DNA of 35,865 nt from a virus. The stretch lies in IMG/VR virus record IMGVR_UViG_3300024999_000248, positions 1-35,865 of that record; one strand, given 5' to 3'. Both the position numbers and the translations under genes were made by a program. How positions within the stretch are numbered: the stretch's first letter is position 1; every line of letters starts with the position of its first letter. Below the pieces are notes generated by a model. That model did no database searches and was not told where the DNA came from. It saw nothing but the letters and a program-made list of their open reading frames with translations. Shown here one piece after another: positions 10,940 to 34,631 of this stretch.

Positions 10940-12259
10940 ATGATTAAATTAAATAAATTGGTTGGAGTATATAAAATAACTAATAAAGAAAATGGAAAAG
11001 TATATATTGGTAAGAGTAACGATATAGATAATCGTTGGAAAGAACATGTTAGAGCATTAAATTCAAATTCTCATCATAGTTATAAATTGCAAGAGGATTG
11101 GAATGAATTTGGTGAAGAATATTTTGTATTTGAAATATTAGAAGAAATTAAACCTCTAGATACTAAAGAGAAAACAATTATGGAGTTACTTTGTATAGAG
11201 GGGAAATATATAGATGAATATGATTCTATAAATAACGGGTATAACATTGAGAATACTATAGAGGAGGTGATTAGTGGTAGAAAAACACTCATAAAACAAG
11301 ATAAAAAACTAATAATAGGTGAAAGTTTTGTGAAATTACAAAATAATATATATGACAATCCAAATATTTCGAATGAAGAAATCACAGTATTAGTTTTATT
11401 ATTGAGAAATTATATAATAAGTAAATCTTCTACAATATGCTCCATAGATATGATTGCACAATTTATGAAAATAGAAACATCAAGAAATAGAAAAATAATT
11501 GGAACAATAAAAGAAGCAATAACTGGACTAGTTGAGAAAGGATATATCACAAAATTATATGATATACATTGTAATGAAATTAACGTAAGTAAATTGAATA
11601 AAGATTATATATTTTATGCAGAGTTTCCTGACATTCCAGATAGTGGTTATTTTATTGTTCATGACAAAGACATAAATAAAATATTTAGTCATTTAGAATC
11701 ATTGAACGTTGGTAAATTTAATTTGATTAGATATTTTATAGCGTGTAGAAGAGTATCTAGTAATAAATATAATTTTGGATATTTATCACAAACTAAACTA
11801 AAGGGGTTAGTCACCGATTCAAGATCAATTAGGAAATATAATAATATTCTCCAAGATGAATTAGAATTAATCAGATACAATAATAACTACTTAACAAAAA
11901 ATAATAAATATTGTGTTACATACATAGGTAAATTTGACGATAAAGCAAATTTTAATAGATTAGTAAAAGAAGAAGTTGCTACAAAAGGATTAATATACAC
12001 AAATAAGATCAAATCAAACGAGAGAAGGAGTGTCCAAGCAAAAATAAATAGTATTGAAAAATCAATTGATGATTTTAGCATAGAGGAACTTGAAGCATTA
12101 TTGTTGAAAAAGAAAGAATTAGAATATCAACCACAAATTACAATTGAAGAACAGAAAGCATTGCAAGAGATAGAAGATTTAAACCATGCACAAATACCTA
12201 TTGATGTTTTGCAACAGATTGAGAATGAATTGAATGAAAGAAAAGAGGATGAAGAATAA
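10940..12259 (+). CDS. GIY-YIG nuclease domain fused to a Rep-like winged-helix protein (439 aa)
   Basis: Residues 8-110 are a GIY-YIG endonuclease module: GVYKITNKENGKVYIGKSND, then the catalytic-type Arg in DIDNRWKEHVR and an ELLCIEGKYIDEYDS region with the metal-binding Glu. Residues about 130-330 look like a replication-type DNA-binding protein with two winged helices (EEITVLVLLLRNYI with an HTH; then KFNLIRYFIACRRV with an HTH and wing), as in the preceding 350-aa gene. The last 75 residues form a charged coiled coil. The ribosome leader is almost identical to that of the preceding gene, which suggests duplication followed by capture of the nuclease domain. It may be an origin-specific nicking protein or a homing enzyme that borrowed a Rep DNA-binding region. 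The ATG has AAGGAG upstream. Confidence 0.7.
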   Translation: MIKLNKLVGVYKITNKENGKVYIGKSNDIDNRWKEHVRALNSNSHHSYKLQEDWNEFGEEYFVFEILEEIKPLDTKEKTIMELLCIEGKYIDEYDSINNGYNIENTIEEVISGRKTLIKQDKKLIIGESFVKLQNNIYDNPNISNEEITVLVLLLRNYIISKSSTICSIDMIAQFMKIETSRNRKIIGTIKEAITGLVEKGYITKLYDIHCNEINVSKLNKDYIFYAEFPDIPDSGYFIVHDKDINKIFSHLESLNVGKFNLIRYFIACRRVSSNKYNFGYLSQTKLKGLVTDSRSIRKYNNILQDELELIRYNNNYLTKNNKYCVTYIGKFDDKANFNRLVKEEVATKGLIYTNKIKSNERRSVQAKINSIEKSIDDFSIEELEALLLKKKELEYQPQITIEEQKALQEIEDLNHAQIPIDVLQQIENELNERKEDEE

Positions 12260-12649
12260 ATGTTATATTACACTAAATTTAATGAAATTAAATCTGTATC
12301 TAAGTTTGTTAAAATTATGAAGTCTGATGAAGACATTACTTTAGCAGTAGAAACAAAAGATGGAATGTTTGCTATGATATTAAAACCTAAATCTTGGAGA
12401 TTTGATGATTGCTATAGTGTATCAATGGTTGCAAGAGATAAGAATAATGCAAATAAAGGACTAACTATGATACATAAAAGTGTTCTTACAACTGATGAGA
12501 TTACAGAGTTACATTGTGAAAAAAGCGGTGCAGATTTTAAGAATATGTTTAACAAAAACATTAAGGAATTGTTTAAGTGTAATGTGTATGAGATTGATAA
12601 ACCAATGAATATAATTATAGTAAATAATCTAGAAAATGAGGATTATTAG
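12260..12649 (+). CDS. Hypothetical protein (129 aa)
   Basis: Begins directly after the stop of the GIY-YIG gene; its ribosome site (GAGGATGAAG) is inside the last codons of that gene. The soluble alpha/beta protein has an N-terminal half with alternating strands (DITLAVETKDGMFAMILKPK) and a C-terminal basic helix. Its end overlaps the upstream signals of the helicase gene, whose start lies two bases after this stop. No family is recognised. The tight packing suggests it acts in replication with its neighbours. Confidence 0.7.
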   Translation: MLYYTKFNEIKSVSKFVKIMKSDEDITLAVETKDGMFAMILKPKSWRFDDCYSVSMVARDKNNANKGLTMIHKSVLTTDEITELHCEKSGADFKNMFNKNIKELFKCNVYEIDKPMNIIIVNNLENEDY

Positions 12650-12650
12650 A

Positions 12651-15326
12651 ATGTCATATGAATTAAGACCATATCAATTAGAATCTGTAGAAGCAGTTAA
12701 TAATCTTAAAGAAGGAGAAAGCGGAATCATATCCTTGCCAACAGGTTGCCATGCTAAAGGAACTAAAATATTAATGTATGACGGATCTATAAAAAATGTA
12801 GAAGAAATAGTAATAAATGATTTGCTCATGGGAGTAGATTCAACTCCTAGAAAAGTTTTAGAATTACATACTGGTAAAGATCAGATGTATAAAATACTCC
12901 CAAGAAAAGGAGAAAGCTTTACTGTAAACAAAGGTCATATATTAAGTCTTAAGAAAACAAATCAAGTAGGTAAAAACTCAAAAAAGAAAATATATCCTTC
13001 AATGCTAGGTGGCAGTATAGTAAATATTTCAGTAGAAGAATATTTAACTAAAAGTAATACTTTTAAACATATACATAAACTTTATAGAACTGGAGTAGAA
13101 TTTGAAAAAGCAAATGAACCAATATTAGATCCTTATTTATTAGGGTTAATTTTAGGAGATGGTTGCACTTGCAATAATCAATTAAGTATATGCACCCCTG
13201 ACATTGAAATTGAAGAATCAATATATAATTATGCTGAACAATATGAATTGGAGGTTAGAAAGGAAGAACAAGTTGATAATTTATCTTATAATTATCATTT
13301 TGTAACTCATGAAAGAAAGCGATGTAAAAATTATAGTAATCATATAAGAGAATCATTACGTTCAATGGGATTATTGGCAAAGAAAAGTGGAGATAAATTT
13401 ATACCACAAGAATATAAAACCTCTTCAAGAATACATAGATTAGAAATATTGGCTGGATTATTAGATACAGACGGATATTTAAGCACAAGTGGTTTTGAAT
13501 ATTGCACAAAATCAGCATTACTTAAAGATGATGTCCTATATTTATCTAGGAGTCTTGGATTAGCATCCTATAGTTCTATAAAAATGGTCAATGGTAGAGT
13601 ATATTATAGAATTTATATTAGTGGAGATTGTTCTATTATACCTACAAGAATAAAAAGAAAACAAGCAAAGAAAAGAGAACAAATAAAAGATGTTTTAGTA
13701 ACTGGATTTTCTGTGATTAAAGAAGATATAAATAATTATTATGGATTTACAGTGGATAAGGATAATTTATATTTAATGGGTGATTTTACTGCAACTCATA
13801 ATTCAGGGAAAACTATCATAATGTCTGCAATAGCAAATAATACTGTTGGTAGAGTTTTGATTATAGTCCAATCTTCTGAGCTTCGTGATCAGACAAAAGA
13901 GAAATTACTTAATACTAATCCTGAATTAGATGTTGGTATTGTTCAAGCTTCATTAGACCAAATCGCATCAAAAGTTGTTATTGGAACAAGGCAGTCACTC
14001 ACACATTCCAAATCAACTAGGTTAGAAAGAATGTCTGAGCATGGAGATTTTGAATTAGCAATCTTCGATGAATCGCATGTAGCGTGTGGACAGATAAAGA
14101 AAATCATAGATAAATTAAATCCTAATATAAAGATTATTGGTTTAAGTGGTACTCCTTGGAACTTAGAAATGAAAAAAGTATTCAATGGAATTATTTATGA
14201 GAAACCTATATTAGAAATGATTAACAATAAGTATTTATGTGAACCTAAAGCAATATATGTACATTCAGATGTTGACTTGTCAAATGTTAAAACTATTGCT
14301 GGAGAGTTCAATCAAAGACAACTTGAAGATGCTGTAAATACAAATCCTAGAAATGACTTGATTGTGGAATCTTATCTTAAATACGCTAGTGATAGAAAGT
14401 CTACAATTGTATTTGCATCAGGGATAGCACATGCCAGAGACATCTGCCAAACATTTAAAGATAACAATATTGTTTGTGATTATGTAGATTCTACTATTGA
14501 AGACACTCAAAGAGATTTAGTAATCAGTAATTTTAAGTCCGGTAAATTACCTGTAATTGTAAACGTAGGTATTTTAACTTTGGGGTTTGACCATCCTGAG
14601 ACATCATGTTTAATAGTAGCCAGACCAACAAAGTCAAAAATACTCTACACTCAAATTATTGGAAGAGGACTTAGAACATCAGAAGGCAAATCTAATTGCT
14701 TAATCATTGATGTAGTTGATATTGTGCGTAAACATGACTTAATGACAATGACAGATATATTTGGTGTAGAAATTAAAGATCAAGAAACTTTAACTGAGGC
14801 AATTGAACGTGAAGAAAAGAATAAAGCAGAGAAATTAGAAAGAGAAGAATTAGCAAAGCAAAAAGAAATTGAAAGATTGGCATTAATTGCAGAAGAATTA
14901 AAACTATTCAAGACAAATATGAGTGAATATTTCTCAGAATCATATTATGATTGGTATAAGTGTGATAGAGATACGTTCGCATTATCTATAACATCTGATT
15001 TACATTATACAATCTATAAGAATTTACAAGAGAATATATTTGAATTGTACATGGTAAATACCACTAATAGAATCAACACTAAGGATTACATATCTGAGGA
15101 TGACAATTTAATTAATCTTATTGAAGAAGCAGAGAAATATGCATCACGAAAATATTCTACATTCCTAGATCGTAAAGCAAAGTGGAAATATGAACCTGCA
15201 ACTCAGAAACAATTGGATTGGTTAAAATCTCAATGGTGGGCTAATGGTAAGGTTTTGAGAACTAAGTTTGATGTTCATACTTGTGTGAAATCAAATAAGA
15301 TCAGTTGGATTATTAAGAAGAGATAG
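12651..15326 (+). CDS. SF2 DEAD/DEAH-type helicase precursor with intein (891 aa)
   Basis: ATP-dependent helicase of the UvsW/type-III-restriction-like SF2 group. The N-extein MSYELRPYQLESVEAVNNLK is a Q-motif-like start ending LPTG. A 352-residue intein follows, then the C-extein begins SGKT, so the mature Walker A is PTGSGKT. DESH (Walker B), LSGTPW (motif III), VFASGIAHA (motif IV) and QIIGRGLRT (motif VI) follow. The last 200 residues are a charged helical region (EREEKNKAEKLEREELAKQK) and a Trp-rich tail. After splicing about 539 residues remain. ATG at 12651 is chosen over one at 12636 because GAGG lies nine bases upstream. It likely unwinds DNA at the origin or at recombination intermediates. 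Confidence 0.9.
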   Translation: MSYELRPYQLESVEAVNNLKEGESGIISLPTGCHAKGTKILMYDGSIKNVEEIVINDLLMGVDSTPRKVLELHTGKDQMYKILPRKGESFTVNKGHILSLKKTNQVGKNSKKKIYPSMLGGSIVNISVEEYLTKSNTFKHIHKLYRTGVEFEKANEPILDPYLLGLILGDGCTCNNQLSICTPDIEIEESIYNYAEQYELEVRKEEQVDNLSYNYHFVTHERKRCKNYSNHIRESLRSMGLLAKKSGDKFIPQEYKTSSRIHRLEILAGLLDTDGYLSTSGFEYCTKSALLKDDVLYLSRSLGLASYSSIKMVNGRVYYRIYISGDCSIIPTRIKRKQAKKREQIKDVLVTGFSVIKEDINNYYGFTVDKDNLYLMGDFTATHNSGKTIIMSAIANNTVGRVLIIVQSSELRDQTKEKLLNTNPELDVGIVQASLDQIASKVVIGTRQSLTHSKSTRLERMSEHGDFELAIFDESHVACGQIKKIIDKLNPNIKIIGLSGTPWNLEMKKVFNGIIYEKPILEMINNKYLCEPKAIYVHSDVDLSNVKTIAGEFNQRQLEDAVNTNPRNDLIVESYLKYASDRKSTIVFASGIAHARDICQTFKDNNIVCDYVDSTIEDTQRDLVISNFKSGKLPVIVNVGILTLGFDHPETSCLIVARPTKSKILYTQIIGRGLRTSEGKSNCLIIDVVDIVRKHDLMTMTDIFGVEIKDQETLTEAIEREEKNKAEKLEREELAKQKEIERLALIAEELKLFKTNMSEYFSESYYDWYKCDRDTFALSITSDLHYTIYKNLQENIFELYMVNTTNRINTKDYISEDDNLINLIEEAEKYASRKYSTFLDRKAKWKYEPATQKQLDWLKSQWWANGKVLRTKFDVHTCVKSNKISWIIKKR
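12747..13802 (+). mobile_element. LAGLIDADG intein in the helicase P-loop (352 aa)
   Basis: The intein starts at Cys1 (CHAKGTKILMYDG, block A), has a block-B His in TVNKGH (residues 59-64), and ends LMGDFTATHN, followed by Ser as +1 residue. Two dodecapeptides, LLGLILGDG (131-139) and ILAGLLDTDG (234-243), each keep the acidic residue, so the homing endonuclease may be active. The insertion splits PTG|SGKT, the most conserved point of the ATPase, where loss would kill the enzyme. Base composition matches the host gene, so it is not an obvious recent arrival. Confidence 0.95.
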
Positions 15327-16926: not shown

Positions 16927-17871
16927 TTGAGTAAAGTTAAAAGAAAGAAAAAGAAAATAAAACACAAGAAAGAAAATAATTGTTTGAATTGTGGAGAAAA
17001 ATCTTTTAATAAATTTTGTACAAAATTATGCAAAACAATGTATCCTGAAAAAATACCTATTGAAAAATTAAAAAATTGTATAGTTTGCTTCAATAGATAT
17101 ATAGAATATCAAGAAAATAATTATGAAATAGAAGGCAATTTTTGTTCTCAAAAATGTTATGAAAGACTAATAAAAGATATCAATAGTAGATTAACTAAAC
17201 CAGAAAAATTAGAAACAAGACCCAAATGTATAACATGTGGTAGGAGATATGAACCGCTAAACGAAGATGATTTAACTTGTAAAGAATGTAAGGATTTCGA
17301 AAAAGTTTGTATTATTATAAATTGCGGAAATTGTGGAAAAGAAATAAAAACAACAGACTCACGCAAAAGATTTTGTAGTACACAATGTAAAAAAGAGTCT
17401 CAGAGAAATAAATATATGAATAAGAAAGAACCAAGTAATAATATAGATGTAATCCCACATTCTAAATATTTAGGAGAACAAAAATTATCTGAATTAGTTA
17501 GTTATATATTTTATGACCAAGAAATATTTTTTAGAAAAAGATATGAATGGTTAAGATATATAACTAATCCTCTTGAACTAGATATTTATCTACCAAATAT
17601 TAATTTAGCATTTGAGTATGATGGCGGTCAGCATGATAAATTTACTCCTTGGTTTCATAAAACAAAACAGGATTTTTTAGATCAACAGGACAGAGATAGA
17701 TTTAAAGACAAAAGATGTGAAGAGGAAGGAGTTACACTCATAAGGTTTAAAGATCAAATTGAATACATAACAAATTGGTCGTTAATTAATAAGTTAAAAG
17801 AATACGGTAGAAGTGATATATTACATTCTAAATATTTTGATGGTATAGTAATATCACAAATACAAAAATAA
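16927..17871 (+). CDS. Zinc-finger homing endonuclease, PD-(D/E)XK/Vsr-like (314 aa)
   Basis: Residues 1-160 carry four Cys-rich modules (CLNCGEKSFNKFCTKLC; CIVC with CSQKC; CITC with CKEC; CGNC with CSTQC), likely DNA-binding zinc knuckles. The C-terminal half holds a very-short-patch-repair-like nuclease: NPLELDIYLPNINLAFEYDG (Glu217, Asp219, Glu230, Asp232), GGQHD, and then RDRFKDKRCEEEGVTLIRF. This matches DUF559/EDxHD-type homing enzymes known from Bacillus phages. It starts at TTG with AAAGGAG nine bases upstream. A free-standing gene between unrelated genes fits a mobile endonuclease. No flanking group I intron was recognised. Confidence 0.8.
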   Translation: MSKVKRKKKKIKHKKENNCLNCGEKSFNKFCTKLCKTMYPEKIPIEKLKNCIVCFNRYIEYQENNYEIEGNFCSQKCYERLIKDINSRLTKPEKLETRPKCITCGRRYEPLNEDDLTCKECKDFEKVCIIINCGNCGKEIKTTDSRKRFCSTQCKKESQRNKYMNKKEPSNNIDVIPHSKYLGEQKLSELVSYIFYDQEIFFRKRYEWLRYITNPLELDIYLPNINLAFEYDGGQHDKFTPWFHKTKQDFLDQQDRDRFKDKRCEEEGVTLIRFKDQIEYITNWSLINKLKEYGRSDILHSKYFDGIVISQIQK

Positions 17872-18829: not shown

Positions 18830-18870
18830 CCAACCAACGTGACTAAATGGCGATATGATACGTTGGTTGG
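18830..18870. repeat. 11-bp perfect inverted repeat with palindrome
   Basis: CCAACCAACGT (18830-18840) and ACGTTGGTTGG (18860-18870) are perfect arms around a 19-base loop. GTTTTATAAAAC (18819-18830) directly before is a perfect 12-bp palindrome. The arms are GC-richer than the surroundings. No T-run follows, so it is more likely a binding site or an mRNA stem than a terminator. Confidence 0.6.
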
Positions 18871-18894: not shown

Positions 18895-19332
18895 GTGCTT
18901 TTATGTTTGAATTGCTATAAGGTTTACAATCAGAAAACGATAAAGAACAATATATGTAAGGTTAAAGAGTGCTATGGTGATGTAGTAGAAATTGATGAAT
19001 TATTTGTACCAGTGATTGCTGAGTTGAATAGGAAGGGTTATATTACGCAATACTGCTGTAGCGGTCATGTTGCTGGAAATAGTGGTTTGCACAGTTACAT
19101 ATATTTCGAAGATTATACTTTTCTTCCTTCTTTACCAGAAGGATATAAACATGATCAAGATATATACCCTCATATTAAATTTGATGAAGGTAAAGTTTCA
19201 ATTCTAAGATACTTTGATAAAAAATTAAATCTTGTGGAATTAAGTAAACAACTTTATAAAAATGCTATTAGTTTATTGGAATGGGTAGATGGTTTACCTG
19301 ATTTAAATGAAAAAGATGGAGGAATAAAATAA
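18895..19332 (+). CDS. Zinc-ribbon protein of unknown function (145 aa)
   Basis: GTG start with GGAGG seven bases upstream. The first 30 residues have CLNC and CKVKECYG, a zinc ribbon. Residues about 32-60 (VEIDELFVPVIAELNRKGYI, then TQYCCSGH) are a motif I have seen in uncharacterised Firmicutes and phage proteins. An aromatic beta region (SYIYFEDYTFLPSLPEGYKH) follows. The CCSGH signature suggests a metal or catalytic site. Its stop is two bases before the CoiA-like gene and the last codons supply the GGAGG site, so the two are co-translated. No enzyme activity can be assigned. Confidence 0.7.
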   Translation: MLLCLNCYKVYNQKTIKNNICKVKECYGDVVEIDELFVPVIAELNRKGYITQYCCSGHVAGNSGLHSYIYFEDYTFLPSLPEGYKHDQDIYPHIKFDEGKVSILRYFDKKLNLVELSKQLYKNAISLLEWVDGLPDLNEKDGGIK

Positions 19333-19334
19333 TA

Positions 19335-21182
19335 ATGAACTTTGAAAATATACAAATGGTTGTAGTTAGAAAAAGAAGTGATGGAAGTAAGATAAATATT
19401 AGTCAAATTGATGAGGAAAACAGATATGAGAAATATGAATGTATTGTGTGTGGTTCAGATGTAATTCCTGTAGCTGTAAAAGGTAAAATTATTGGTGGAG
19501 ACAATGCAAAAGTAACTCCTCATTTTAAACATTTGAATGCTGATAAATGCGGAACAGAGTCATTTACCCATTTTTGGATGAAAACAGAGTTTATTAAAAT
19601 TGGTGATTGTTTTAAAGTAATCACAGATAAGGAAAATGAATACATTTGTAATCAAATATTCTTTGAAAAAACTATAGTAATAAATGGTAGAAGATATACC
19701 CCAGATGCAACCGTTTTAACATCTTGTGGCAACACAATTCATTTTGAGTATAATTATAGTAATAAGAAAAAAGTTAAGGATTATATTGATATTTGGAAAG
19801 AATTAAATAACATTATTATTGAAGCAGATATGAATTCTATATTGAGTGTATTTTCAGATTCAGTTCCAACTTTTAAAGCATTATACTATGAAGGCAAATG
19901 TTTTAATTTAAATGATGAAGATAATTTTTATTATAAAACTATAGGAGAATATAAATTAACAAAACGTGATGAAAATTATTTAGAATCAAGAAAAGTTGAA
20001 ATGGAAAATTTAGATTATCTATGGGAAGAGATAAGAAAGATAAAATATGAAAATAAAGATTATAGTGAGATTGGAAATTTTATTAGATCAATAACTTCTG
20101 ACGAAGGTAGAAAAGTGGCTATTGCTATTTTATCAAGAGCAAGATGTGGCAATAGTATTTTAGGAAATTACGTGACATTTATAAAAACTAATATTGATAA
20201 GCACTTTAAACTTTTGAACTTAAAGTATAACGGGTATCTGATTAAGTATGAAACTGAAGTACCTAGACTTATCTATGATAGAATTTTCAATGGAGTAACT
20301 ATTAAGTTTTATATTCCAGACAGTGGTTATAATTCAGACGTTCCAGAAATTCACCAAACTTATAATTATAACTTTAAAGATGAAATACTGAGTGGCACAT
20401 TTAAAAGTAGAATAGATACGACTGTCGAAAAGTTGTTGTCCACTCATAATTTATTACTAAAAGTTTTAGATGTATTTCAAAAGAACGATAAGATAGTCAA
20501 TTACAAATTAAATTACAAAGAAAATACTGATTACATTAATGCAATATATTTTGTAGATTATAGAAATAAATGTTTTGTTTTAAGCAAAGGTTATTATAGT
20601 AAAGAAACATTTCAAGAGCATCATACAAATGTATTTAATAATTTAATTGATGATAATACTTTGTTTATTGGCTTACATTACTTATCTTATAATTTTTATA
20701 TTCAAGAGACAAAAGATTCTTATGATTTTAATTTTGTTAATTCTACAGATAAGTTTATTCAATATAGATTTGATAAATTTATTAAGCAAAAGACTTTAAA
20801 CTTATCATATTATTTTGTAGACAAATCGTTACCTAGATATAACTTTGTAAAAGTTACTTCTGAATTAAATGATTTACTAGATAAAATTGAAGAGAATATA
20901 AAAGACATTAAACGTAATTTTTCTAACACTGAATATTCTACAAAAATATATAAAAACGGAGAAAGTATTAAAATCTCTGATTGCGATATAGACAAAAAAC
21001 TTACTCAATTACTATATCCAATCACTTACTTATCAAATAAATGTGATTATGAAGAATTGAATATACAACTTAATAAAGATTTTACAAAAGGTCTATTGGG
21101 TGATTTTAGATTATGGTTAATAAAAGATTTTATTAATGAATTGAATCGTATAGGGGTAGTTGAAATTAATAATATTAAATAA
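19335..21182 (+). CDS. CoiA-like protein with predicted nuclease domain (615 aa)
   Basis: The first 85 residues match the CoiA-family head: a zinc pair CIVC, then KVTPHFKH and ESFTHFWMKTEF (CxxC ... HFxH ... ExxxH). A PD-(D/E)XK-like core follows at about 125-160 (RRYTPDATVL, IHFEYNYSNKKKVKDYIDIW, ending IIIEAD), with possible Asp/Glu/Lys active residues. Competence protein CoiA acts in recombination during DNA uptake; phage and mobile-element relatives are poorly known. Residues 200-615 are AT-rich helical sequence with no known motif. It lies directly before the RNA polymerase gene, 13 bases from its start, which suggests shared expression. The ATG has GGAGG 13 bases upstream. Confidence 0.6.
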   Translation: MNFENIQMVVVRKRSDGSKINISQIDEENRYEKYECIVCGSDVIPVAVKGKIIGGDNAKVTPHFKHLNADKCGTESFTHFWMKTEFIKIGDCFKVITDKENEYICNQIFFEKTIVINGRRYTPDATVLTSCGNTIHFEYNYSNKKKVKDYIDIWKELNNIIIEADMNSILSVFSDSVPTFKALYYEGKCFNLNDEDNFYYKTIGEYKLTKRDENYLESRKVEMENLDYLWEEIRKIKYENKDYSEIGNFIRSITSDEGRKVAIAILSRARCGNSILGNYVTFIKTNIDKHFKLLNLKYNGYLIKYETEVPRLIYDRIFNGVTIKFYIPDSGYNSDVPEIHQTYNYNFKDEILSGTFKSRIDTTVEKLLSTHNLLLKVLDVFQKNDKIVNYKLNYKENTDYINAIYFVDYRNKCFVLSKGYYSKETFQEHHTNVFNNLIDDNTLFIGLHYLSYNFYIQETKDSYDFNFVNSTDKFIQYRFDKFIKQKTLNLSYYFVDKSLPRYNFVKVTSELNDLLDKIEENIKDIKRNFSNTEYSTKIYKNGESIKISDCDIDKKLTQLLYPITYLSNKCDYEELNIQLNKDFTKGLLGDFRLWLIKDFINELNRIGVVEINNIK

Positions 21183-21195
21183 GGAGGTTTTATCA

Positions 21196-24021
21196 TTGAT
21201 TAATAGACAATTTTATACATATAAATTTAAATCTTCTAGGCTGAAAGCATATAATTATAACATTGATATTACATTTGATAAAGCCAAGGAGGTAAAGGAG
21301 GTAATTGCTTTAGCAGATAATCAAATATTAAGAAGTATAAGAGACATAAGAAAGAGAATAATCAAGCATGAAAAACTAGAGAGATTATTTAAAGAGAGAA
21401 ATGTTAGAAAGAAAAGAAACAATAGAAAAAACTCAAAAGAGAATTCAGATAGAATTTTCCAAATACAGAATAAAATAAATAGAACTATGTTTATTCCAGA
21501 TTATATTACAATAGTCATAGAACATCCTTCTCATTATAAGAAACTATTTAAAGATGGATTATTTATCAATGGTAAGTTATATAGGAGGGCCAGTTGCTCT
21601 GCTGGTCAAGCAAGAGTTTCTACTGTTGTTTTTTGTTGTGTAGATATATTAGATGAGTTAAAAGAAAGATTAAATAATGGTAGAGATTTAAATAAAGAAA
21701 ATGCTCCGAGCAAATTTAATTCATATTTTGGACTCGCTGGATCTTCTACATATTTAGTTAGTGAGCCAAAATTTATTGTTGTAAAGGATTTTATTAATAC
21801 GGATAAATTTAAAACTAATTATGTAATAGAAAAGGAGTGGAATATTGATGATGATATAGAAATTCGTGAAATTGAAATGGAAATGAATAGAACGGACGGA
21901 ATGGGCATAATTAGTCCTAAGCAAGCATTAGCATGGTCTCAAGAATTAGGGTTAGATTGGGTTCCATCTCAGTGGTGTGTGAGACAGAATTTTTTGAAAG
22001 GGATGCTCTGCGTATTTGATATACATACCTTTTGCCAAGAAGTCAACGATGGAAACTATATAGTTAATACTATATATGAAGATAGTGATGGAAACTATAT
22101 AAAAGCAGACCTGAGAGATTACGAAGTAATAATAACTGAATCACAATTTAAATTGTGGGATAGTTTCCCAGATATAAATACATATATTAATAATTGTCAT
22201 AAGAATAAGTTGTTTTGGGGTATATCACAATATACTCCAAAACACGCAAAAGATATTCTTAAACTCAATTATCAATTTATCCAAACATTGAATTTAAATC
22301 AAGAAAGTATTGAGAAATTAGCACAACAATTTGTTGATTGGATATCAGGAGTTTCTTACGATAATGTCTATTATATGCTATTATTTTTACTTGGTGTAAA
22401 TAATAATGAGTATAGTATTAAGGAATATCTAAAAAGCAGTGATAATTATTGGATTAAAAGTCTAATCATTAATCATGACATGAAAAATGATAAATTTATT
22501 CTTACAAAAATAAAAGAATTAATCAAGATTAGGATTAAGAACGGGTGCATGGGGGATATATTTACAAATGGAAACTTTCAAGTATTGGTATATGATCCTT
22601 ACGGATTTATGCAACATGTTTGTGGATTAGAGGTTACTGGTTTACTTAAAAAAGGAGAATTTTATTCTAATTATTGGAATGAACGAAATGTAAAACAAGT
22701 AAATGGAATGAGATCACCTTTAACATATAGAAGTGAGCATGTAATTTTAGATTTAAAAAAAGATAAAGAAACAGAAAAATGGTACAAACATTGTAAGTTA
22801 GGTATAATTTTGAATTATCATGGTCATGAAGTGGTAAATTTTGGTGGGGCAGATGTAGATTATGATATTTTGGCCACCACTTCAAGTCAAGAAATGATCA
22901 ATGGGGTTTTTAAAGATGAGTTACCTGTAGTATATTCCCCTCCAAAACCTAAAAAAACACTACTTACGGATAATGACTTGTATCTTGCTGATACTTTTTC
23001 ATTTGGATCAATAATTGGGTCAATTACTAATAAAAGTAGTAATGGATATGCCTTGTTGCCAAGTATAGAAAAGAAATACGGCATAGAAAGTGAAGAATAT
23101 AAATTAATATTATCTAGATTGAAGCAATGTTGTAAGGCACAATCGGCTCAAATTGATAAAGCTAAGATAGGTAGAGATGTTAAGGGAATACCTAAACTAT
23201 GGATACATAAACAAGAAATAGAAAAGGACGAAGCAGGAAATATTATAGATTCTGAAGAAATTATAAAGCAAAAAGAGTTATATAATAATACTTTATTAAG
23301 TAAATATCCATATTTCTTTAAATATCTATATAAGAATACACATCGTAGATATAGAAAATATTGTGATGAGAATGAAATTACTTGTCATCAAAAATTCAAA
23401 ATGTCTTTCAGTAAGTTGAAAGAATTGAAAAGAGTATCTATTGATCAAAAACAGTATATAAGTAATTTTTATAATTATATGCCATTAACTTATAGTGATA
23501 GTCCTATGAATTTATTGTGCAAATACATTGAAGGTATTAATTTTGAAATAAATTCTAAAATAAAGGTAATAAGTTTAGATGATATAACAACCAACTATAA
23601 AAATGAGGATCATCCTTATTCCGATGAGCAATATAATACAATTATAGAAGTTTTAAAGGAGCATATTGTTGGAGTTAAATATGATAAATTAAATCAAGTA
23701 GATGACGTAAATAATGACAATGATTACAGCGAAGATGAAATTAGAGAATTTAAAGTAGATAATGATACTTTAGAAAATAAAATCAATAATGTATGTAGTG
23801 ACGTATATTTAGTTACTAATGTTTTGTTAGATTATTTTTATGTAGAAAAACCAAGTTCAAACAAAGATATTTTATGGGGAACATATGGTAAATATATATA
23901 TCAAAATGTTAAAGAGAAATGTTCTGGTAAAATATTATTCCCCTTCCCCAAAAAAGATGGAGATATTAAATACTTGGAAATCAATTATTCATTAAAGGAG
24001 ATTGATGTCAATGGACTATAA
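21196..24021 (+). CDS. Single-chain two-barrel RNA polymerase, YonO/QDE-1-like (941 aa)
   Basis: Predicted RNA polymerase of the double-psi beta-barrel superfamily. Residues 550-557 read GGADVDYD, matching the metal-binding motif DxDGD of cellular RNA-dependent RNA polymerases and NADFDGD of bacterial beta-prime. Asp553, Asp555 and Asp557 would bind the catalytic metal. Upstream NGMRSPLTYRSEH (Arg506) matches the R-x-P segment that precedes this site. Downstream QSAQIDKAKIG (654-658) matches the AxDxxKxG helix of that family. Length is close to YonO of SPbeta (about 900 aa), a DNA-dependent enzyme. TTG at 21196 is chosen because AAGGAGG lies eight bases upstream. It probably transcribes phage genes independently of the host. 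The DYD in place of DGD is notable. Confidence 0.75.
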   Translation: MINRQFYTYKFKSSRLKAYNYNIDITFDKAKEVKEVIALADNQILRSIRDIRKRIIKHEKLERLFKERNVRKKRNNRKNSKENSDRIFQIQNKINRTMFIPDYITIVIEHPSHYKKLFKDGLFINGKLYRRASCSAGQARVSTVVFCCVDILDELKERLNNGRDLNKENAPSKFNSYFGLAGSSTYLVSEPKFIVVKDFINTDKFKTNYVIEKEWNIDDDIEIREIEMEMNRTDGMGIISPKQALAWSQELGLDWVPSQWCVRQNFLKGMLCVFDIHTFCQEVNDGNYIVNTIYEDSDGNYIKADLRDYEVIITESQFKLWDSFPDINTYINNCHKNKLFWGISQYTPKHAKDILKLNYQFIQTLNLNQESIEKLAQQFVDWISGVSYDNVYYMLLFLLGVNNNEYSIKEYLKSSDNYWIKSLIINHDMKNDKFILTKIKELIKIRIKNGCMGDIFTNGNFQVLVYDPYGFMQHVCGLEVTGLLKKGEFYSNYWNERNVKQVNGMRSPLTYRSEHVILDLKKDKETEKWYKHCKLGIILNYHGHEVVNFGGADVDYDILATTSSQEMINGVFKDELPVVYSPPKPKKTLLTDNDLYLADTFSFGSIIGSITNKSSNGYALLPSIEKKYGIESEEYKLILSRLKQCCKAQSAQIDKAKIGRDVKGIPKLWIHKQEIEKDEAGNIIDSEEIIKQKELYNNTLLSKYPYFFKYLYKNTHRRYRKYCDENEITCHQKFKMSFSKLKELKRVSIDQKQYISNFYNYMPLTYSDSPMNLLCKYIEGINFEINSKIKVISLDDITTNYKNEDHPYSDEQYNTIIEVLKEHIVGVKYDKLNQVDDVNNDNDYSEDEIREFKVDNDTLENKINNVCSDVYLVTNVLLDYFYVEKPSSNKDILWGTYGKYIYQNVKEKCSGKILFPFPKKDGDIKYLEINYSLKEIDVNGL

Positions 24022-24838
24022 ATATAACGAATTGTCTTATGCAGAAGAAGTGTATAAGAAGGGGTTCTTAACAAAATATTTTGCCACAGAATTAAGATTA
24101 TTAGTTTTATATTATAGAGATGTATTAGAATTGAAACCTAAAGAACGTGAATTTAAAATATATGAGTTTTGTAGAAAATATATTCCTAATTTCAGAAAAG
24201 AAAAGTTCTATAAAACAATAAATAGGGCATTAAATAATGGAGGGAAAAAAGATCAAAAACTAATTTCTATATCTAAAATAGATATTTACAAATTAGAACT
24301 TGATTATATTAATTCTTTAGATATCAATCAGGAATACAAAAAGGTAATGTTTACTTTTTTAGTTCAGTTAAGATTAAATAAAATGATTTTTGAATATAGA
24401 CATGACGGAGAGGAATATAATATGTCATATTTTAAAGGAGGTGTAAAGAAATATAATAACATAAAAAAGATATCAAATATACCAGTTAAAATGCTTTTAA
24501 ATGATGAAGTAATAAATACTCTGGAGAAGTTAGAATTAGTTACAATAGTACATAAAGGAACTATTCTTTTGGATTATATTAAGAATTGTAAACAAGAAGG
24601 AGATGTTGCATTTTCTATAAGTGATTTTGATAATATTGGTTATTATTTGGATTATTATAATAAGGAAAATGGTGTGATAAAATGTGAAAATCAAGGGTGT
24701 GAAAAATTAGTCAAGAAAAAAAGTAATAACCAAAAATTTTGTATTGATTGTGCCAAAAAAGTTGAAAAGGAAAATTCAGTAGAAAGAAAGCGTAAACAAA
24801 GAAATAATGAGAAATGTCACGAAGTCGAAAATCTCTGA
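24011..24838 (+). CDS. Hypothetical protein with C-terminal zinc ribbon (275 aa)
   Basis: Mostly helical, with an N-terminal half of about 180 residues resembling a winged-helix or helical-bundle protein and a C-terminal zinc ribbon (CENQGCEKLV, then QKFCIDCAKKVEKENSVERK). The tail ends in a basic segment, as in many phage and plasmid DNA-binding proteins. ATG at 24011 is favoured over 24005 because the GGAG spacing is then ten bases. It overlaps the polymerase stop. Its last codons lie in a sequence that also reads MSRSRKSLKRACSKGLEIF in the +1 frame, and the shared 32-base element begins there. It may assist the polymerase, but this is only inferred from linkage. Confidence 0.65.
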   Translation: MDYKYNELSYAEEVYKKGFLTKYFATELRLLVLYYRDVLELKPKEREFKIYEFCRKYIPNFRKEKFYKTINRALNNGGKKDQKLISISKIDIYKLELDYINSLDINQEYKKVMFTFLVQLRLNKMIFEYRHDGEEYNMSYFKGGVKKYNNIKKISNIPVKMLLNDEVINTLEKLELVTIVHKGTILLDYIKNCKQEGDVAFSISDFDNIGYYLDYYNKENGVIKCENQGCEKLVKKKSNNQKFCIDCAKKVEKENSVERKRKQRNNEKCHEVENL

Positions 24839-24915: not shown

Positions 24916-25479
24916 GTGCTAAAGCTTATCGTAGGAGTATATAAAATTGTTTGTTTAATTAATAATAAACTATATATAGGGTCTAGTTATAATATAAAAA
25001 ATAGGATTAGTATACATAAATATAAATTAAGAGCAAATAAACATGAGAATATACATCTCCAGAGAGCTTGGAATAAGTATGGAGAAGATAATTTTAAGTT
25101 TGAGGAAATGGAAGAATGTTCAATAGAAGTTTTACGTACAAGGGAACAATATTGGATAGACTCACTAAAAGTATGTGATATAAATATAGGATATAATATT
25201 TGTAATATAGTTGGAAAACCAGGAGCAAAAATTGACGTAGATACTGTAATTAAAATAAAATATAATATTTTATCAAGGACAGCATTAAATATACGTAATT
25301 TAATAGATTGGCGAGAGTGTTTATTTGAATTGAATGAAAAGATTACAAGTTTCAGAACAGATATAGGAAAGAATAAAACTTTAAAAATGCTTAAAATGAG
25401 ATCGCATTGTGAAAAGTGTGGTGAGGTAATTTATAAAACAAACAATAAGCAAAAATTTTGTAGTAAATGTAGAAAATAA
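24916..25479 (+). CDS. GIY-YIG homing endonuclease with C-terminal zinc ribbon (187 aa)
   Basis: Residues 5-25 give VGVYKIVCLINNKLYIGSSY (GIY-YIG motifs as GVY and YIG), followed by NIKNRISIHKYKLR with the catalytic-type Arg, and a TREQYWIDSLK segment that supplies the Glu. The middle is a helical DNA-binding region. The end is a zinc ribbon (CEKCGEVIYKTNNKQKFCSKC) like that of the neighbouring 275-aa protein, so the tail may have been copied from it. It starts at GTG with a weak ribosome site, unlike its neighbours, which suggests low expression. The following 490 bases are a folded noncoding stretch, so the gene may sit beside or within a mobile RNA element. Confidence 0.8.
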   Translation: MLKLIVGVYKIVCLINNKLYIGSSYNIKNRISIHKYKLRANKHENIHLQRAWNKYGEDNFKFEEMEECSIEVLRTREQYWIDSLKVCDINIGYNICNIVGKPGAKIDVDTVIKIKYNILSRTALNIRNLIDWRECLFELNEKITSFRTDIGKNKTLKMLKMRSHCEKCGEVIYKTNNKQKFCSKCRK

Positions 25480-28011: not shown

Positions 28012-28287
28012 ATGAACAAGCAAGACGTAATTAACAACATGCAAACACTGGTAGAAGGTAGCACAAAGAAAGACTGTGAAAAATATCTAACTGCATTTCT
28101 TCAAACATTAGAAACTGCTGTTAAAAATAGGGATGAAGTTAAATTGTCTGGATATTTTGGAATGGAAGTCGTAAATCGTGCTCAAAGATCGGGAGTTAAC
28201 CCCAAAACGAAGGAAAAGATTATAATTCCTGCAAAGACTGCAATTAAAACAACTATTTATAAAGTTCTTAAAGAATTAGCACTGTAA
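28012..28287 (+). CDS. HU-family nucleoid DNA-binding protein (91 aa)
   Basis: Full-length match to the HU/IHF fold: helix pair MNKQDVINNMQTLVEGSTKK and CEKYLTAFLQTLETAV, the LSGYFGMEVVNRAQRSGVNP turn (F/G and the conserved RxxRxGxNPxTGE-like segment) and the beta arms (KIIIPAKTAIK). It lacks the second Gly of the usual NPxTGE, reading NPKTKEKI. It bends and packages DNA, and phage HU homologues often help replication or origin melting. ATG with a weak AAAAGGGG site. A nested hairpin follows at 28304-28366. Confidence 0.9.
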   Translation: MNKQDVINNMQTLVEGSTKKDCEKYLTAFLQTLETAVKNRDEVKLSGYFGMEVVNRAQRSGVNPKTKEKIIIPAKTAIKTTIYKVLKELAL

Positions 28288-28692: not shown

Positions 28693-29490
28693 ATGTTTTA
28701 TGAAGATGAAAGAGGTAAATATCTTGAATCTAGTAGGGGCTAATCGTTCATTCAGCTAGGTCTATGAAGACGCTAGTGTTTTATAATCAATACTTCCCTC
28801 TATAAATTGTTGTGGTGATGATTTTTTGGAAATTGCATAAGCCAAGACAACAACAATAAAAACTTATTTTAGGGTTTGATAAAATTAGGTCAACGCTAGT
28901 GCAATTGCGAACCTTCCCTAAAATCATGTGCATAAGTTAGTAAGACCTTGAAAGACAGGCATTGCTCTGACAAAGAGTATGAGGTTTATAGACGCACAAA
29001 TTATTAGATTTCCCCTCATCACTCATTGTTTGTTCTCTATGGCGTTAATCACAGTTTATTTAAACTTAGTGATAGAGACAAATGGCATACTGCAATGAGA
29101 TTGATGATATATGAGTATGCCAAATTACAAATAAGGTGAGTTTATAGGGGTAGACTCACCTTTATATTAAAACCATTGTTAAGTCAATGGTCGGTATGAT
29201 ATTGCCGAATAGTCCTCCATAGTGCATGGTTTGTCAGATTCCTTTAATATAACTGCATGGTAAAGCATGTAAAAACTTAGAGTGCAAGGTTTAGAGGAAA
29301 AGCCTTCCAAAATATCATTTAGGGCAATGTACTTGATTATTAAGACTTAATAAGATGTAATAATACACATCTTAAAGACATGAGAACAAAGACTGAGTTA
29401 GACTACGGTTAATAACTCAGTCTCTCATGGATACAAACTAAATAAGTTTGCCGGATAACTTAAATAAAACGGCATTAATAATTTAAAAAC
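28693..29490 (+). ncRNA. Large ornate structured RNA candidate beside tRNA genes
   Basis: About 800 bases with no gene longer than 16 codons but dense perfect stems: ATTGTTGT/ACAACAAT (28806, 28850), ATTTTAGGG/CCCTAAAAT (28866, 28916), GGCATACT/AGTATGCC (29084, 29114), GGTGAGTTTA/TAGACTCACC (29135, 29151), CCATTG/CAATGG (29173, 29185), TAAGATGT/ACATCTTA (29351, 29367), and CATGAG + AGACTGAGTTA paired with TAACTCAGTCT + CTCATG (29379-29429). TGTGC near 28927 and GCACA near 28994 enclose a branch. Base use is GC-richer and less skewed than coding DNA. Size, folding and position next to phage tRNAs match the GOLLD/ROOL class; I cannot assign which. The start is approximate, and a 16-codon frame at 28693 with GGAG may be coincidental. 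Confidence 0.65.
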
Positions 29491-29512: not shown

Positions 29513-29597
29513 GGAGAGTAGGCGAGTGGTTAGCAAACTGTCTTGAAAACAGTCGTGGGTTTTGCCCTGTGGAGTTCGATTCTCCAACTCTCTTCCA
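29513..29597 (+). tRNA. tRNA-Ser (anticodon TGA)
   Basis: Acceptor arms GGAGAGT and ACTCTCT (one G-U) end in T-CCA encoded. Anticodon stem ACTGT/ACAGT frames CTTGAAA (anticodon TGA, reads UCA). A long variable arm and T arm TGGAG-TTCGATT-CTCCA fit Ser. Position 8 is A instead of the usual T, and the discriminator is T where bacterial tRNA-Ser usually has G. Confidence 0.85.
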
Positions 29598-29615
29598 AAA
29601 ATAATTAACATATAA

Positions 29616-29701
29616 GGATAGTTGTCAGAGTGGTCTATTGAGATTGTTTGCTAAACAATTGAACTTCGGTTCCGTGTGTTCGAATCACACACTATCCTCC
29701 A
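29616..29701 (+). tRNA. tRNA-Ser (anticodon GCT)
   Basis: Acceptor GGATAGT/ACTATCC, anticodon loop TTGCTAA (GCT, reads AGC/AGU) on an ATTGT/ACAAT stem, a long variable arm (GAACTTCGGTTC) and T arm GTGTG-TTCGAAT-CACAC. Encoded CCA follows a T discriminator. Confidence 0.9.
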
Positions 29702-29718
29702 ATTAAATCTTATCATAT

Positions 29719-29792
29719 GCCGAAATAGTTTAATGGTAAAACAACTGATTTGTAACCAGTTAATCACAGTTCGATTCTGTGTTTTGGCTCCA
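29719..29792 (+). tRNA. tRNA-Thr (anticodon TGT)
   Basis: Acceptor GCCGAAA/TTTTGGC (one G-U), D arm AGTTTAATGGTAAAAC, anticodon loop TTTGTAA (TGT, reads ACA), T arm CACAG-TTCGATT-CTGTG and encoded CCA. The last anticodon-stem pair is an A-C mismatch. Confidence 0.9.
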
Positions 29793-33233: not shown

Positions 33234-34631
33234 TTGTCAAAATCAAAAGATGAACTTTATATTATTGGTGTAGATTTTAAAAACAATAGAGATAAATATA
33301 AGAAAATACTTAATACTAAAAATCCTTCTTGGAATGATTTAAATGAGTCTCAGGGATTTCAGTTTAAATCTGGAGAACATTATCGTCAGTTTATCAAGAA
33401 AAGACAGGATCGCGATGGGACTTTAAAGAAGTTGGGTGTTAATAAGGAGATTATTAATAATATTGTTCTGGGTGCGTATTTTCCAGAAGAAGATAATATT
33501 ACGAAATCTATTGAAAGAGCAAGACTAAAAGATAAAGAAACATTACCTAATTATAAAGAATCTGTAGAAATTAAGCAAGATAATTCTCAAGTTTCTGATA
33601 AAGTTATTCCATTATCTGATGAAGAATTAAAAGATGTAAATTTTATTCTTAAATCACATAATTATGATCCTGAAGCATGGACTTTGATAAGTGCTAAACA
33701 TAGTATTTGGAATGTAAATACTAAGGTAGATGGAGTGAAGAAATTATTTAGTTCAAAGGTGAGTGTAAAGCCCTATGTTAAATCTTTTGATACCAATTGG
33801 ATTAAATCTGCTTTAGAAGACTTAGATTTAGACAGTCCAGTAATAGAGCAAAAACCTTATCATATAAAAGGTAAAACTTTAGAAATTAATTTAGCAGATG
33901 TACATATTGATAAACTTTGCTGTATTGATGAAACTAGAAATGAATATTCGACAGAAATTGGTATTCAAAGATTATGGCAAGTAATTAATGATATTATTGA
34001 AAAGGTAAAACATTATAATATCAAGAAAATAATATTCCCATTTGGTCAAGATTTCGGAAATATCGACAATATTTTTAATTCCACAACAAAAAATACGCCA
34101 CAAGACACAGACGTAAAATATGATGTAATGTATAAATTACTACTCAAAAATATAATTCAAATTATACATAAATTATCTGATATTGCTCCAGTTTTAGTAA
34201 TATATGTTGGAGGAAATCATGATAAAGTAACATCGTTTACAATGACTGAAGCAATGTATTGGTATTTCTTAAATAATGATAATGTAGAAGTTGATTCTGT
34301 ATTTAATAATCGTAAATATATATTGATAGGAAAAAATCTTTTGGGGTTAGCTCACGGTGCTGATGAGCGAAAAAACATAGTTTATTGTATGCAAAATGAT
34401 GTTCCTGAATTATGGGGAAAAGCAAAATATAGAGAATTTCATTTATCACATTTTCATAAAGAGAAAATGACAGATGAGCAGAATGGAATTATCTTTAGAT
34501 GGATTAGTGCAATTTGTGGTACTGATGCGTGGACTTATAATAGCGGATATGTTGGTGCTCAAAAGAAAGCACAGTCATTTATATGGGATGATGATAAAGG
34601 ATTGGAAATGATTATTAATAGTTATGTTTAG
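33234..34631 (+). CDS. Calcineurin-like phosphoesterase, SbcD-like (465 aa)
   Basis: Predicted metallophosphoesterase. The catalytic domain starts about residue 215 with LADVHIDKL (D-x-H), then FPFGQDFGNIDN (GxD), YVGGNHDK (GNHD) and LAHGADE, and near the end HLSHFHKEK (GHxH-like). The first 210 residues are helical and basic, probably DNA-binding. Relatives in Firmicutes phages are annotated as DNA repair exonuclease or as recombination-related phosphoesterases. The start is TTG with GAGG eight bases upstream. The nearby SF2 helicase suggests joint work on DNA ends or repair intermediates. Nuclease activity is inferred. Confidence 0.8.
   Translation: MSKSKDELYIIGVDFKNNRDKYKKILNTKNPSWNDLNESQGFQFKSGEHYRQFIKKRQDRDGTLKKLGVNKEIINNIVLGAYFPEEDNITKSIERARLKDKETLPNYKESVEIKQDNSQVSDKVIPLSDEELKDVNFILKSHNYDPEAWTLISAKHSIWNVNTKVDGVKKLFSSKVSVKPYVKSFDTNWIKSALEDLDLDSPVIEQKPYHIKGKTLEINLADVHIDKLCCIDETRNEYSTEIGIQRLWQVINDIIEKVKHYNIKKIIFPFGQDFGNIDNIFNSTTKNTPQDTDVKYDVMYKLLLKNIIQIIHKLSDIAPVLVIYVGGNHDKVTSFTMTEAMYWYFLNNDNVEVDSVFNNRKYILIGKNLLGLAHGADERKNIVYCMQNDVPELWGKAKYREFHLSHFHKEKMTDEQNGIIFRWISAICGTDAWTYNSGYVGAQKKAQSFIWDDDKGLEMIINSYV

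Follow-up and report, generated by a model that had tools for sequence, protein, structure and literature searches.

What kind of polymerase, if any, does a reading frame of 941 codons encode, which genes would such an enzyme transcribe, and does it act alone? These questions are raised by positions 21196-24021 (+) of a 35,865-nucleotide stretch of viral DNA, here called the window, in which an earlier note had proposed a divergent single-chain two-barrel RNA polymerase (RNAP) akin to YonO of phage SPbeta. YonO is a proven DNA-dependent RNAP that is essential for the late genes of SPbeta and is inactivated by a 3D>3N change (PMC5467207).

The polymerase gene and its fold

The reading frame is real, as are the three motifs on which the proposal had been based, NGMRSPLTYR, GGADVDYD, and AQIDKAKIG, which follow one another in the order claimed. 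Translation starts at a TTG codon, as in close relatives, and an AAGGAGG ribosome-binding site (21181-21187, +) lies just 5' of this start and overlaps the upstream gene's stop codon. The 941-residue product matched Pfam family PF05183 (RdRP) with an E value of 6.6e-11 and 42 bits, which passes the curated cutoff of 23.8, and it matched phrog_8308 (PHROG 8308, function unknown) at 3.6e-147 with nearly the whole protein covered. By tblastn, it was 49% identical to a protein of phage BUCT082 across 99% of its length, 26 to 32% identical to proteins of Enterocloster phages, and about 25% identical to YonO and YonO-type proteins of SPbeta relatives over residues 115-612 (E, ~1e-13); phmmer against PDB sequences returned nothing useful. 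Scans of viral and genome contigs yielded 86 related RNAP loci. Since the cellular matches in these scans fell in Lachnospiraceae, Clostridiales, Bacillus, Robertmurraya, Cytobacillus, Metabacillus, and Heyndrickxia, a Firmicute is the probable host of the window phage. The gene is under purifying selection, with dN/dS values of 0.05 to 0.14 against five relatives and of 0.05 to 0.07 in the barrel region.

An AlphaFold model built from 45 sequences (pLDDT, 89.2; pTM, 0.86) was matched by Foldseek, with a probability of 1.00 each, to plant RDR2 (2.3e-17) and QDE-1 (~1e-15) and then to the virion RNAP gp66 of the crAss-like phage phi14:2 (PDB 6vr4). Global TM-scores were modest (~0.4), which fits relatives that have mainly the catalytic core in common. 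Judged by these matches, the model would place two double-psi barrels in one chain, and Pfam, tblastn, and the AlphaFold/Foldseek comparison agree on a two-barrel polymerase of the YonO/QDE-1 kind. QDE-1 and RDR2 (PF05183) resemble the window protein in the two-barrel fold and the Asp triad, but they are cellular RNA-silencing enzymes, unlike a phage RNAP, and only 11 to 14% identical to it in structural alignment. Likewise, gp66 is a phage two-barrel RNAP that lacks the usual Gly of the catalytic motif (DFDID), but it is a 2181-aa virion protein, unlike the window RNAP, and the fold match is weak (6.6e-5). The description "single-chain" holds for the core, which is contained in one chain, but is incomplete in that an overlapping partner gene, here called gene C, is nearly universal among the loci (91 of 97).

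A labile position between the catalytic aspartates

The motif GGADVDYD (22843-22866, +) starts at residue 550 and contains the catalytic residues Asp553, Asp555, and Asp557, with Tyr556 at the usual Gly position. Upstream lies NGMRSPLTYR (22702-22731, +; residues 503-512), of which R506 and P508 are invariant in 45 homologues, and downstream AQIDKAKIG (23146-23172, +; residues 651-659), in which D654 is invariant and K657 nearly so. Lack of the three Asp in homologues had been named as an observation that would speak against the proposal; D553, D555, and D557 are kept in all homologues with an uninterrupted motif.

The position flanked by the second and third Asp is variable. Among 53 representatives it is occupied by G in 18, Y in 16, M in 9, F in 8, and V and L in 1 each. 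On the RNAP tree, in which long branches leave the deep joins unsure, this position underwent fifteen changes overall, including at least five between G and non-G, and the two states alternate inside clades; YonO and most of the basal members retain Gly. The window RNAP, having Tyr, does not conform to DxDGD, but given that the Gly is labile in the family, we do not take it as defining. Judging from sequence comparison, the family can accommodate a Tyr at this site, where it interchanges freely with F, M, V, L, and G. The superfamily already includes a member without the Gly, gp66 (DFDID), but the looseness within one family is striking, and it is relevant to the question of which features of the oldest RNA polymerase active site are truly fixed.

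The earlier note had read DYD, together with low overall similarity, as the sign of a new branch. The branch is indeed distinct from YonO, large, and little described, and it carries bulky residues in place of the usually fixed Gly (DxD[Y/F/M]D, against DNDGD in YonO); within it, the window RNAP groups with loci L006-L008, with support in the tree. DYD itself, however, is a clade-wide labile trait that is also present in the cultured phage BUCT082.

Several lineages (L011, L013, L065/L066/L068, L070/L084, L087, L091, and L096) carry an interruption in the RNAP gene, located at or inside the codons of the Asp triad; for L070, the end of a group I intron model coincides with the exon edge (E = 6e-7, below the Rfam cutoff). 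On the basis of these gene sequences, the RNAP active site looks like a favored intron site.

Late-gene context and a natural polymerase swap

YonO (SPbeta, NC_001884; Forrest et al. 2017, PMC5467207) resembles the window RNAP in its two-barrel single-chain core, in the order of its motifs, and in being located before HU and the late module, at an identity of about 25% over half its length. Across our set the recurrent gene order is RNAP, gene C, HU, a noncoding stretch, yonK/exonuclease, terminase, and portal. In the window, an HU-family protein (28012-28287, +) occupies the position of SPbeta yonN, and an exonuclease (phrog_704; 33234-34631, +), located 3' of the RNAP cassette and in relatives ahead of the late module, that of yonJ; the window ends before the terminase, and the late module lies beyond its end. 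Directly 5' of the RNAP gene, here and in about a dozen other loci, is gene A (19335-21182, +; 615 aa), CoiA-like by its homologues. Further upstream, an inverted repeat with 11-base arms, CCAACCAACGT...ACGTTGGTTGG (18830-18870), precedes the gene at 18895; it was not seen at the equivalent place in L002.

A late-gene role for the window RNAP can be argued by analogy with BUCT082, a B. subtilis phage from soil. Its protein UAW07825 (hypothetical; MZ969646; PHROG 8308) belongs to the same branch, carries DFDYD, and is followed by gene C, whereas the gene 5' of it is unmatched by the gene A profile, unlike in the window. BUCT082 and SPbeta have 1555 bp at 94.1% identity in common across the HU-yonK interval. 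The mapped 5' end of YonO, B. subtilis 168 position 2225998 (Forrest et al. 2017, PMC5467207), which we located through 1496 bp that are matched identically in a genome using B. subtilis 168 coordinates, corresponds to L014:7029, inside this common interval. Because the late-control DNA is common to both phages, the polymerases have diverged (28% identity over the matched part), the only two-barrel RNAP found in BUCT082 is of the window type, and the YonO 5' end falls in the interval, a window-type RNAP very likely took over the job of YonO in BUCT082. Two RNAPs that are only 28% identical probably serve the same late unit, and between the two phages the RNAP has been exchanged naturally while the late-control DNA is nearly identical. 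Gene order and the BUCT082 late-control DNA agree in suggesting, by analogy, a late-operon role with transcription from upstream of yonK. The interval common to SPbeta and BUCT082 also contains a DUF3800-VIII RNA (Rfam RF03075), at L014:8006-8071 and L009:8632-8697.

We are fairly sure that the window gene encodes a phage DNA-dependent RNAP of the YonO kind that is made in a cassette with gene C and transcribes late genes beyond that cassette. The two double-psi beta-barrels of the one chain would meet at the active site, where Asp553, Asp555, and Asp557 would hold the catalytic magnesium; the enzyme, made from the cassette together with the product of the overlapping downstream gene, would then transcribe the late genes that follow. 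Both the DNA template and the late-gene target are what we infer. In kind, such an RNAP is ordinary, YonO being known; the novelty lies in how large the branch is, in the variability at the Gly position, in the exchange of one RNAP for another, and in the near-universal gene C.

Could the protein instead be an RNA-dependent RNA polymerase acting on phage or host RNA? Its best family is the RdRP family PF05183, the nearest solved folds, RDR2 and QDE-1, belong to mostly RNA-dependent enzymes, and several phage records are annotated as RNA-dependent RNA polymerase. Yet YonO, the nearest relative that has been tested, strictly prefers DNA templates (PMC5467207), and late transcription would account for both the place of the gene ahead of the late module and the exchange of YonO for this RNAP type in BUCT082, so that we regard an RNA template as improbable. 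Even less probable, in our estimation, is that the bulky-residue branch is catalytically inactive and serves a regulatory function. Tyr or Met between two metal ligands is unusual, and retention of the DxDGD Gly in YonO and most basal members might be taken to point that way, but the three invariant Asp, the low dN/dS of the barrel region, and the alternation of G and non-G within clades argue for an active enzyme, as do the presence in BUCT082 of a bulky-type RNAP as the only two-barrel one found there and the Ile at this position in gp66.

The earlier note had also expected dedicated phage promoters that differ from a host consensus in the window. None were found there, and the host promoters could not be called either: sigma-70-like sites (113) were no commoner than in shuffled sequences (mean, 136), so neither kind is callable from the window. 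In Bacillus phages, at L014:6835-7115 and equivalent places, two tandem units occur of a hairpin, TCGG, and a long stem; pairing in the first hairpin is kept through several unrelated sequences, and the mapped YonO 5' end coincides with the beginning of the second long stem. We considered an N4-type hairpin promoter, with the 5' end after an inverted repeat of conserved pairing, but on folding the start was inside the stem of the second long hairpin, and an array of structured RNAs explains the region at least as well. A candidate equivalent in the window, CCATTG-TTAAGT-CAATGG-TCGG (29173-29194), was set aside, as such matches outside the SPbeta group are at about chance level. Just ahead of it, a noncoding block that ends in a hairpin (28793-29165) is 91 to 96% identical to L005 and L045, despite RNAPs that are 91% and 51% identical, respectively, to that of the window. 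This block had no Rfam match and is probably better read as a separate noncoding RNA than as a promoter. Three tRNA genes, Ser (tga), Ser (gct), and Thr (tgt), follow at 29513-29792.

Gene C, a candidate partner

Above all, it is the near-universal partner gene that makes the finding interesting. In the window, gene C (24005-24838, +; ~277 aa, with an ATG start at 24005 or 24011) overlaps the RNAP stop. It adjoins the RNAP gene downstream in 88 of the 97 loci and is slightly further off in 3 more, and in 83 of these 91 its frame opens ahead of the RNAP stop. It is missing from SPbeta, Perkons, two divergent loci, a contig that stops inside the RNAP gene, and MT836002, in which a stretch that matches gene C but contains stops lies downstream of the RNAP. 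Gene C is tightly coinherited with the polymerase: its inter-locus distances correlate with those of RNAP at r = 0.90, compared with 0.19 for the exonuclease, 0.39 for the terminase, and 0.60 for HU.

The gene C model (pLDDT, 94.3) consists of a helical body, a C-terminal Zn-ribbon, and a basic helix, the ribbon-like part containing four Cys near the C terminus, three of them invariant. A fold search in the PDB gave no match, and the model resembles only uncharacterized siphovirus proteins, one of which is labeled RNA polymerase subunit; the open-license literature searched contained no account of gene C. When a gene C profile was run against the whole SPbeta and Perkons genomes, only the RNAP C terminus was matched (1.3e-5 and 2.2e-4), and in the reverse search YonO matched gene C in two Bacillus phages. 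The plain HMM score between gene C and YonO was weak and composition-biased (18 bits), and a 58-bit YonO match from an iterated profile was discarded in favor of a clean profile, the iterated one having absorbed YonO. Because the similarity is short and confined to the ribbon and its flank, we take the resemblance between the gene C Zn-ribbon and the YonO C terminus as suggestive. In this respect YonO, with the ribbon on its own C terminus and no separate gene C, differs from the window.

Most likely, the gene C product works with the polymerase, and it would probably do so at initiation, which makes it a direct candidate for the question, left open by Forrest et al. 2017 (PMC5467207), of how YonO finds its promoter and whether a factor is needed. 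More tentatively, and with somewhat less than even confidence, we suggest that most YonO-like phage RNAPs are two-gene enzymes, gene C being a new type of initiation factor without a known fold that has a reduced form on the YonO C terminus and lets RNAPs with only a quarter of their residues in common use one late promoter region. Alternatively, gene C might be no more than a hitchhiker in tight linkage, encoding, for example, a protein that binds or packages DNA, while the RNAP works alone as reported for YonO elongation. Overlapping genes recombine less readily, an effect that would by itself increase the correlation; Zn-ribbons with a basic tail are frequent; and YonO alone elongates in vitro (PMC5467207). 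We nevertheless think this rather unlikely, considering that gene C persists across deeply diverged loci in which HU, exonuclease, and terminase are swapped, and that phages without it, SPbeta and Perkons, have a similar ribbon on the RNAP.

Genes for homing endonucleases of the GIY-YIG and HNH types are located at 10940-12259, 16927-17871, and 24916-25479, one of them directly after gene C, and a helicase gene (12636-15326) with Hint and LAGLIDADG homing-endonuclease domains apparently contains an intein.
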